Assembly: GCA_001485605.1 (NCBI GenBank)
Contig: FAON01000012.1
Span: 62,001 to 126,000, forward strand
Source of the DNA: Candidatus Kryptobacter tengchongensis
Lineage (GTDB): Bacteria; Bacteroidota; Ignavibacteria; Kryptoniales; Kryptoniaceae
Direction: 5' to 3'
DNA: 64,000 bases
Shown here: positions 5,697 through 62,206 of the stretch, piece by piece
Numbering within the stretch: the stretch's first letter is position 1
How the letters are laid out: each line of letters starts with the position of its first letter
Program-made: the position numbers and the translations under genes
Notes under the pieces: generated by a model
What the model saw: the letters and a program-made list of their open reading frames with translations, nothing else
Databases searched by the model: none
Told to the model about the DNA's origin: nothing

Positions 5697-6231
5697 TCAC
5701 TTGATTCTTTGAATTGCAATCTTCGCCATTTTGATGCCAATCTCTTTAGAAGGTAATGGATATGGGGGCAATGGATATATTTCAAGCACACTGTCTTTAA
5801 CTCGTACTACAAGCCGATTACCACCGGTCCAGTATGCTTCATCTCCGAGGTCAGAAATAGATTCGGTCTCTGGATCGTAGATAGTGCTCCCTTTCCGAGT
5901 TCTTTCTTTAACCCACTCCAACATTTCCAAAGCTTTCTTCCCACGACTATAATAGACGCCCACAGAGTGATGGCGTCCTGCTTTCCCACCCTCATAATAA
6001 CTATACCAACACACACATCTGGGCTGGTCCTTCTCAATTTCCACATCAACAACGGTTACACTCCCAAAATCACCAGATAGAGCATTTTCTACTTCTTTTT
6101 TAGTAAGTAAGTCACATGGATTAACTGCAGTTGATAAGGAAGATCCAATTTTTTGCTTTTGGCTGTGTTTGTGCATCAAGGGCTACGGGGAGAAGAAATG
6201 CTAATATCAAGGGCACGATTTTTATTCCCAC
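5697..6231 (-). pseudogene. Small exported protein, signal peptide out of frame
   Basis: The intact ORF runs from 6179 to 5697 (160 residues) and starts with an odd hydrophilic MMHKHSQKQK. It then has NPCDLLTKKEVENAL, CVCWYSYYEGG and SDLGDEAYWTGG, a pattern loosely like DUF3558-type small extracytoplasmic domains (weak resemblance). Immediately upstream, in the frame starting with GTG at 6231, is a textbook signal peptide: VGIKIVPLILAFLLPVALDA then QTQPKAK. That frame runs into a stop, but removing one A from the A6 run at 6149-6154 joins the two frames exactly at PKAK/IGSSLSTAVNP. It is therefore either a frameshifted gene, a sequencing error in the homopolymer, or slippage. No recognised function. 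It lies downstream of, and on the same strand as, a sorting-domain protein. Confidence 0.6.
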
Positions 6232-6287: not shown

Positions 6288-7778
6288 TTATTTTATCATT
6301 TCCATTTTGTTTTGTTGAATAAATTTTCCTGCCTGTAAGCGAACAAAATAGACCCCACTTGGCAAACCCTTTGCCTCAAAAACAACTGAATATTCGCCTG
6401 AGTTTAATTCCTCATTCACCAGCGTTGCTACTTCTCTGCCAAGGATATCAAAAACTTTCAGGGTTACATGTTCTCGCTGCGGAAGGGAAAAGCGAATTGT
6501 AGTTGTTGGGTTAAATGGATTAGGATAATTTTGATAAAGTTTAAATTCTAATGGAGATCCGCTAACACTTTCAACTTTCGTGATCGGTGAAATCGTTACA
6601 CCGTAAACATCTCCATCCGTAAGATAAAGTTGATCGCCCCGAAAGCTTAATCTAAACCTTGTCGTAAAAGCAAGATATTTTCCATCTGCATAAACGGCAA
6701 AGCAAGAAACTGGATTTTTTATACCAAGGGTATCAAAAACTACAAATTCGTCACTCTTTGGACTTAAAGATAAATCAAAAAAGCGACCAATAACTTTTGA
6801 TGTTAAGTGATTTCCTGAAAATTCAAACCCTGTGCATGTAAACAATATCTCATCGTTGTTCACCACAGCGTAAGGAAGAATATGAGCATTAGAAGTAATC
6901 AAATTTCGTCCGCTTTGAGTTACTCCATCAGGACTTACAAATCTCGCATAAATTTTCCAACCGGTTATTTCCTCATCTGGGAAAAAGCAAATAAATTTTG
7001 CCCCGTCAAAAGTAACGAATAGCGGGTTATCGCTTGGTTCAGAACTTCCATCAATTAAAAAAGCTCCACCAATTTGATATCCACTTTCACTGATTATTTG
7101 TCCCCAAACTTCATTGTCATAGTCGCCTGCCTCTTTAATGAAACAAATCAGATATTTAGAACTGCCATAAGCAAGCGAATATTCTTTTCGCGCAGGAACA
7201 TTGGATATCTGAAAAGAACCTTCCATGTATCCATCCGGTCGTATAAATGTCCCAGCTAAATAATAAGCACCCGCGCTTTTAATTGCAAAAACAAGAAAAT
7301 ACTTATTGAGCGCTGAATTAAAATGAAGAGTTGAAACACCGCTTAAATAACATCGCAAAGTTGAATCTGAATATAAATTGCTTAACTGGAAAGTTTTAGC
7401 ATCAATAAAGCGATATTTAATTCCACCATATTCTCCATCTGTCCACACAACAAGAAAGCGACTGCCGTCAAAAGCAACCTGTGGGATACCAACTTCTAAA
7501 GCAGTATCTGGTATATTGGTTATCCCAAATAAAATTGGAGATCCTATTAAAGAGTTATCAACTTTTGATAAAAACTGCCCAATTATTTGAGCTCCACCTG
7601 TTGGTAATTCCTTCCGCATAATAACAAGATATTTTTCGCTGTCAAATGCACCCGCAAGTGCAAAAACGGAATCACTTCCAATTTCAACTAAAAATTCTGT
7701 TCCAATTTTTGGAACTTGGGAATTTAAAAGGTTCAGCGCGAATAAAAAAGTTAGAAAAATAAAAATTGAGGTTCTCAT
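6288..7778 (-). CDS. Secreted protein with type IX sorting domain
   Basis: 496 residues. Signal peptide at about 1-21 (MRTSIFIFLTFLFALNLLNSQ). The body, about 25-400, is a series of beta-strand repeats of the form YLVIMRKE, FLVVWTDGEYGG, YFLVFAIKSAGAYY, YLICFIKEAGDYDNEVWGQ and FICFFPDE, spaced like blades of a propeller, with no catalytic motif that I recognise. Residues 411-496 are a sorting domain (KLYQNYPNPFNPTTT start, LGREVATLV, PSGVYFVRLQAGK). An AAGGAG lies seven bases before the ATG. It is probably a surface or secreted protein. It is followed by the small frame-shifted exported gene, and upstream by the terminator of the ccm genes. Confidence 0.75.
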   Translation of the reverse strand: MRTSIFIFLTFLFALNLLNSQVPKIGTEFLVEIGSDSVFALAGAFDSEKYLVIMRKELPTGGAQIIGQFLSKVDNSLIGSPILFGITNIPDTALEVGIPQVAFDGSRFLVVWTDGEYGGIKYRFIDAKTFQLSNLYSDSTLRCYLSGVSTLHFNSALNKYFLVFAIKSAGAYYLAGTFIRPDGYMEGSFQISNVPARKEYSLAYGSSKYLICFIKEAGDYDNEVWGQIISESGYQIGGAFLIDGSSEPSDNPLFVTFDGAKFICFFPDEEITGWKIYARFVSPDGVTQSGRNLITSNAHILPYAVVNNDEILFTCTGFEFSGNHLTSKVIGRFFDLSLSPKSDEFVVFDTLGIKNPVSCFAVYADGKYLAFTTRFRLSFRGDQLYLTDGDVYGVTISPITKVESVSGSPLEFKLYQNYPNPFNPTTTIRFSLPQREHVTLKVFDILGREVATLVNEELNSGEYSVVFEAKGLPSGVYFVRLQAGKFIQQNKMEMIK

Positions 7779-61916: not shown

Positions 61917-62206
61917 AACTTGTGATGCTTATATTCAATCAAGCTCTTGAAGATGAGGTTATGAAAATTTTTGACAAGTTAAATATACGTGGATTTACAC
62001 AAATTAACGATGTTTATGGTCAGGGCTCAGATAAAGGAGAGCCACACTTTGGTACACATATATGGCCAGATGTCAACACAATGATTTTAACCGTTATTCC
62101 TGATGAAAAAGTTGAAGATTTTTTGAGCGAGGTGAAATTTCTGAACAATAGATTTGAAGAGGAAGGAATCCATGCATTTACTCTTAATGTTGAGCGGATG
62201 GTATAA
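61913..62206 (+). CDS. PG0541-like small transporter-associated protein
   Basis: 97 residues. It matches the small PII/ACT-like proteins (PG0541 type) found directly after RND permeases in Bacteroidota-group genomes: MKLVMLIFNQALEDEVMKIF, then NIRGFTQINDVYGQG, HIWPDVNTMILTVI and LSEVKFLNNRFEEEGIHAFTLNVERM. The ferredoxin-like order suggests a regulatory or sensing role on the pump, but none has been shown to my knowledge. The start overlaps the permease stop (ATGA). Confidence 0.8.
   Translation: MKLVMLIFNQALEDEVMKIFDKLNIRGFTQINDVYGQGSDKGEPHFGTHIWPDVNTMILTVIPDEKVEDFLSEVKFLNNRFEEEGIHAFTLNVERMV

Follow-up and report, generated by a model that had tools for sequence, protein, structure and literature searches.

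We describe a signal peptide that the evidence supports as being split from its protein by one base, on the minus strand of contig FAON01000012.1 of the heat-loving bacterium Candidatus Kryptobacter tengchongensis. The window, meaning the whole 64,000-nucleotide stretch that was analyzed, covers positions 62,001 to 126,000 of that contig. We consider it highly probable that the gene of a small exported DUF3558-like protein carries a one-base indel at this point, due either to a recent mutation or to an error in the consensus. Frameshifts of this kind, by one base between a signal peptide and the small exported protein to which it belongs, are ordinary events. The features concerned are as follows.

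5697..6179, minus strand: ORF of 160 codons; starts TTG-ATG; begins MMHKHSQKQK; domain from NPCDLLT (residue ~20), containing DLGDEAYW; probable member of a distant DUF3558-like family
6172..6231, minus strand: out-of-frame signal peptide MGIKIVPLILAFLLPVALDA; GTG start; Q is the first residue after the predicted cleavage
6121..6231, minus strand: ORF of the signal peptide in the sequence as read; 36 codons, then a stop
6154-6149, minus strand: A6 run; likeliest indel site; longest homopolymer within 6179-6125
6288..7778, minus strand: upstream neighbor, a Por_Secre_tail protein of type IX secretion; its signal peptide is in frame and has Q after it (cleavage placed by eye)

The 160-codon ORF (6179-5697, minus strand) reads MMHKHSQKQKIGSSLSTAVNPCDLLTKKEVENAL... 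from its start. One frame over lies a signal peptide of 20 residues that ends in ALDA and is followed by Q, in a frame reading V/M-GIKIVPLILAFLLPVALDA-QTQPKAK-NWIFLINCS and then a stop. This frame is open from 6375 to the stop at 6121, and GTG 6231 is the first ATG, GTG or TTG within it. The two frames are offset by one base and overlap at 6179-6121, a segment that spans the A6 run and in which, within 6179-6125, the only other runs of at least three bases are one A3 and one A4. The earlier note had reported a signal peptide one frame over from its protein and off by a single base of an A6 run, and both the sequence and the frames proved to be as it described them. Because the 160 downstream codons are otherwise unbroken, the lesion would be either recent or false. 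The intact form of the gene would be a fusion of the two frames, and an indel of one base, for which the A6 run is the likeliest site, would have put the signal peptide out of frame, with the caveat that an indel elsewhere in the overlap would equally join the frames. Translation of the sequence in its present form would yield one of two products, a signal-peptide fragment of 36 residues or an unexported protein begun at the TTG or ATG at 6179 or 6176.

Codon log-odds, computed with this genome's own usage, distinguish the two frames. Across 6231-6154 the signal-peptide frame scored +7.2 bits and the other two frames -55 and -13, and across 6151-5700 the ORF frame scored +22.3 bits and the other two -45 and -224. 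The best position for a switch between frames was 6131, at 20.7 bits, which is better by 2.3 than the 18.4 bits obtained at the 5' end of the A6 run (6154), while the ORF frame alone from 6179 scored 9.2 bits. A frame switch falling in the overlap, near the A6 run, is supported by these scores, the exact base being left free by the codon test.

Signal peptides were scored with a simple home-made rule (positive n-region, uncharged hydrophobic core and small residues at -3/-1), which is crude and is not a trained predictor. The sample for the chance test consisted of 352 ORFs of at least 100 aa in 400 kb of the same contig, with 704 out-of-frame trials around ORF starts. An out-of-frame signal peptide overlapping an ORF start occurred in one of the 704 trials, the single case being the gene described here, and no second one was found in the 400 kb. 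The out-of-frame signal peptide is above chance. That result, together with the codon usage and the export segments of the homologues described below, makes it very unlikely that the signal-peptide reading is fortuitous and that the protein is cytoplasmic and starts at 6176, even though no Shine-Dalgarno-like motif was found just upstream of GTG 6231, as such a reading would have it. The Q-rule reported for Bacteroidetes in PMC5837995 concerns signal peptidase I substrates with Q after the signal peptide. Q occupies +1 here as well, in the signal-peptide frame, and does so in 18 of the 53 ORFs of this genome with an in-frame predicted signal peptide of similar score, a count that agrees with the rule as published there. 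The gene is thus like the Q-rule substrates of that report in having a signal peptide and then Q, and differs from them in that its signal peptide and its protein lie in different frames.

A closely related intact copy was not found, and no fused form came to light in this lineage. Single-sequence searches for close homologues matched one of 7 genus genomes and one of 61 genomes of relatives, in both cases the genome itself, and a peptide scan of the genome contigs gave 152 stretches, none of which was confirmed. The search of the phylum matched 18 of 395 genomes at E <= 0.1, one of them its own, with 18 foreign places (best E 0.0064) and no close relative among them. Thirteen of these 18 places were translated, and the seven on the plus strand look like unrelated proteins or non-genes; places L029, L031, L032, L039, L040 and L042, on the minus strand, were set aside on weak E-values only.

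Distant relatives were found by other routes. A tblastn search of plasmids led, without use of any motif and at a search E of 0.09, to a protein of Thermus thermophilus that aligns with the window protein over 142 columns at a pairwise E of 1e-9. The motif [DG]LGDEA[YF]W is typical of such proteins. A degenerate DNA pattern for it, applied to the genome collection, gave 54 loci, of which 15 were kept by a sequence rule and 39 dropped, L072 and L083 among the latter looking by eye like cut-off family members. Profile searches matched 19 of the 395 genomes of the phylum and 5 of the 391 of the class (its own genome counted in both), with matches L107, L113, L120 and L122 left out of the tally as having no motif-bearing ORF by the rule used. 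These searches gave a same-genus protein, L123 in genome G006 (profile E 1.4e-18; pairwise E 3e-9 against the window protein), and also other Bacteroidota members. The profile of 15 homologues scored the window protein at E 3.5e-7, the best of 1000 shuffles being 0.18, and scored it at E 1, equal to the shuffle level, when LGDEAYW was masked. The profile score therefore leans on the motif by which the homologues were selected, which leaves the pairwise matches and the motif as the basis of the family link.

The Thermus thermophilus protein (WP_124105553.1) and L123 resemble the window protein in identity (28-30%), length, motifs and the possession of N-terminal export segments. They differ from it in that their export segments are in frame, and in that the two resemble each other far more than either resembles the window protein. 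L123 (G006:C2:8612-8977) and the Thermus plasmid protein (L103, 2420-2869) are 61% identical over 139 residues, which suggests that such genes may be exchanged among hot-spring bacteria.

DUF3558 (PF12079) was matched by 12 of the 21 aligned proteins at E <= 0.1, with a best E of 1.7e-7; none of the six members listed singly reached the Pfam cut-off, the best having 28.8 of 34.1 bits. The window protein shares with DUF3558 and similar exported lipoproteins a CxLLT start, a conserved cysteine pair and a LGDEAxW-type motif, and differs in that the Pfam search matched it to no family, DUF3558 included, for which it lies below the gathering cut-off. On the strength of significant similarity over the domain, it probably belongs by homology to a distant DUF3558-like exported family. 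Two cysteine positions are unchanged in all 21 rows of the alignment, in keeping with an exported protein. A sequence search of the PDB gave nothing convincing (best E 0.22), a fold search of the PDB with nothing at E <= 0.001 was likewise negative, and the AlphaFold model had a mean pLDDT of 66.9 and was poor in the region of the second cysteine. A literature search for DUF3558 with lipoprotein returned nothing.

Homologues that start at the MMHKH position and have no signal peptide, which the earlier note held would count against a split gene, are not what was found. An N-terminal hydrophobic export segment is present in 31 of 33 homologues by a loose rule, most with a lipobox-like motif, in a tally whose rows are not independent, 10 of them being near relatives from one family (f31). 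The same loose rule is positive for 136 of the 352 ORFs of this genome and negative for the window ORF as read; the in-frame N-terminal signal peptide or lipobox expected of the family is absent from that ORF and present only one frame over. Conservation starts near residue 20 (NPCDLL), leaving the first ~19 residues of the ORF outside the conserved domain, and these residues and the 31 export segments together support a split signal peptide. The case shows that an implausible ORF N-terminus can be the trace of a displaced signal peptide, which codon usage, the Q-rule and distant homologues can jointly confirm.

The two homologues without an export segment are L105, a weak match, and L119. In L119 (genome G331, minus strand) an in-frame TAG at 1882-1884 lies between the lipoprotein signal and the domain of a DUF3558-like gene. 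Its relatives L117, L118 and L121 read through the TAG position, and L119 offers a second, independent example of an export signal that is split.

The split gene sits just after the gene for the type IX secretion protein (7778-6288), on the same strand. The place is a variable one, and segment 5643-6287 of the window, from hypE to the type IX secretion gene or ccmF, is represented across the genus by abutting genes, by a nearly empty interval or by other inserted genes. Genomes G002 and G004 lack the type IX gene here, and in them about a dozen bases separate the hypE match from the ccmF-like one. In G001 hypE immediately adjoins the type IX gene, in G006 other genes come after the type IX gene, and G003 has a gap of about 175 bases at the place. 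The comparison covered G001 to G004 and G006; in G005 the two genes are on different contigs. Counterparts of the type IX gene in G001 and G006 share the signal peptide before Q. The window gene is absent from this place in all 5 other genus genomes in which the place is readable, which makes it an accessory insertion. Its GC content is 42.2%, as against 36.4% for the 400 kb, and ranks 346th of 352 ORFs, which is consistent with recent acquisition. The lineage has probably acquired, at a variable spot next to hypE, the gene of a small exported protein with a distant relationship to DUF3558. It is a minor accessory gene of unassigned function.

A single indel is the simplest account of these data, and the weights that we give to its two forms are a matter of judgement. 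We put at about even the chance that the indel is real and recent, and that an acquired accessory gene is thereby inactivated or its product mislocalised. The atypical GC content of the gene and its accessory position agree with this, as do the clean local assembly and the stop found in L119 between lipoprotein signal and domain; against it, there is no second lesion and there are no close relatives by which the event could be dated. We give a smaller but substantial share to an error in the sequence or consensus only, with a fused gene in the living cell. Such an error would suit an ORF that is otherwise intact, and singleton frameshifts in genomes are described in PMC3711429 as often being errors. 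The gene is like the singleton frameshifted genes of the GeneTack class treated in that source in having one frame transition that is not conserved in relatives, and unlike them in that there is no close protein here to validate the transition. The quality of the assembly speaks against an error. In a frame-break control, 1.19 Mb of G006 was compared with 400 kb of G000, the genome studied here, which gave 101 matched ORFs spanning 101 kb, some of which are not genes. No frame change was found in these 101 ORFs, and four internal stops fell in ORF extensions or in presumed antisense readings. This count bounds the error rate only at about 3 per 100 kb, which leaves room for one error here. In addition, 815 sense-strand A6 or longer runs lie inside the 352 open frames, which argues that A6 is not generally misread.

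The A6 run could also be thought to control export, through a programmed +1 frameshift, transcript slippage or phase variation, and AAA can, to judge from the sequence, re-pair after a +1 slip. We regard this as very improbable. To join the frames, something equivalent to a +1 shift is required, and no stimulatory element was seen on reading the sequence. The A6 is a short run: PMC1088944 reports that in many bacterial genomes runs of A or T are evidently avoided at a length of nine, and taking that length as a guide, a slippage gene would be expected to contain a homopolymer of A or T some nine bases long or longer that its homologues share, where this one has A6 only. Runs of A or T in the 400 kb number 973 at length 6, 24 at length 8 and 1 at length 9, such that runs of nine are nearly absent. 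Runs of A6 or longer are ordinary here, being contained in 296 of the 352 ORFs. As noted above, the 400 kb held no second case; nor is the arrangement conserved in the homologues found, none of which has a split frame at such a run. Slimmer still is the prospect that frameshifting or slippage truly takes place at the A6 run at a low level, so that one gene would yield mostly cytoplasmic and a little exported protein; were regulated slippage true, one gene serving two compartments would be notable. The earlier note had offered four causes, and those of mutation and of sequencing or consensus error stand as likely, whereas phase variation and slippage find no support, given a run that is both short and common, the lack of a second case and the lack of conservation. 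A single indel in the gene of a small exported protein is therefore the reading that we prefer.

The genome carries reverse gyrase and type IX secretion signals, both of which are reported for Ca. Kryptonia in PMC4737851. Elsewhere in it, a match to a hypE-like paralog (G000:C7:156986-157762) contains one internal TAA.
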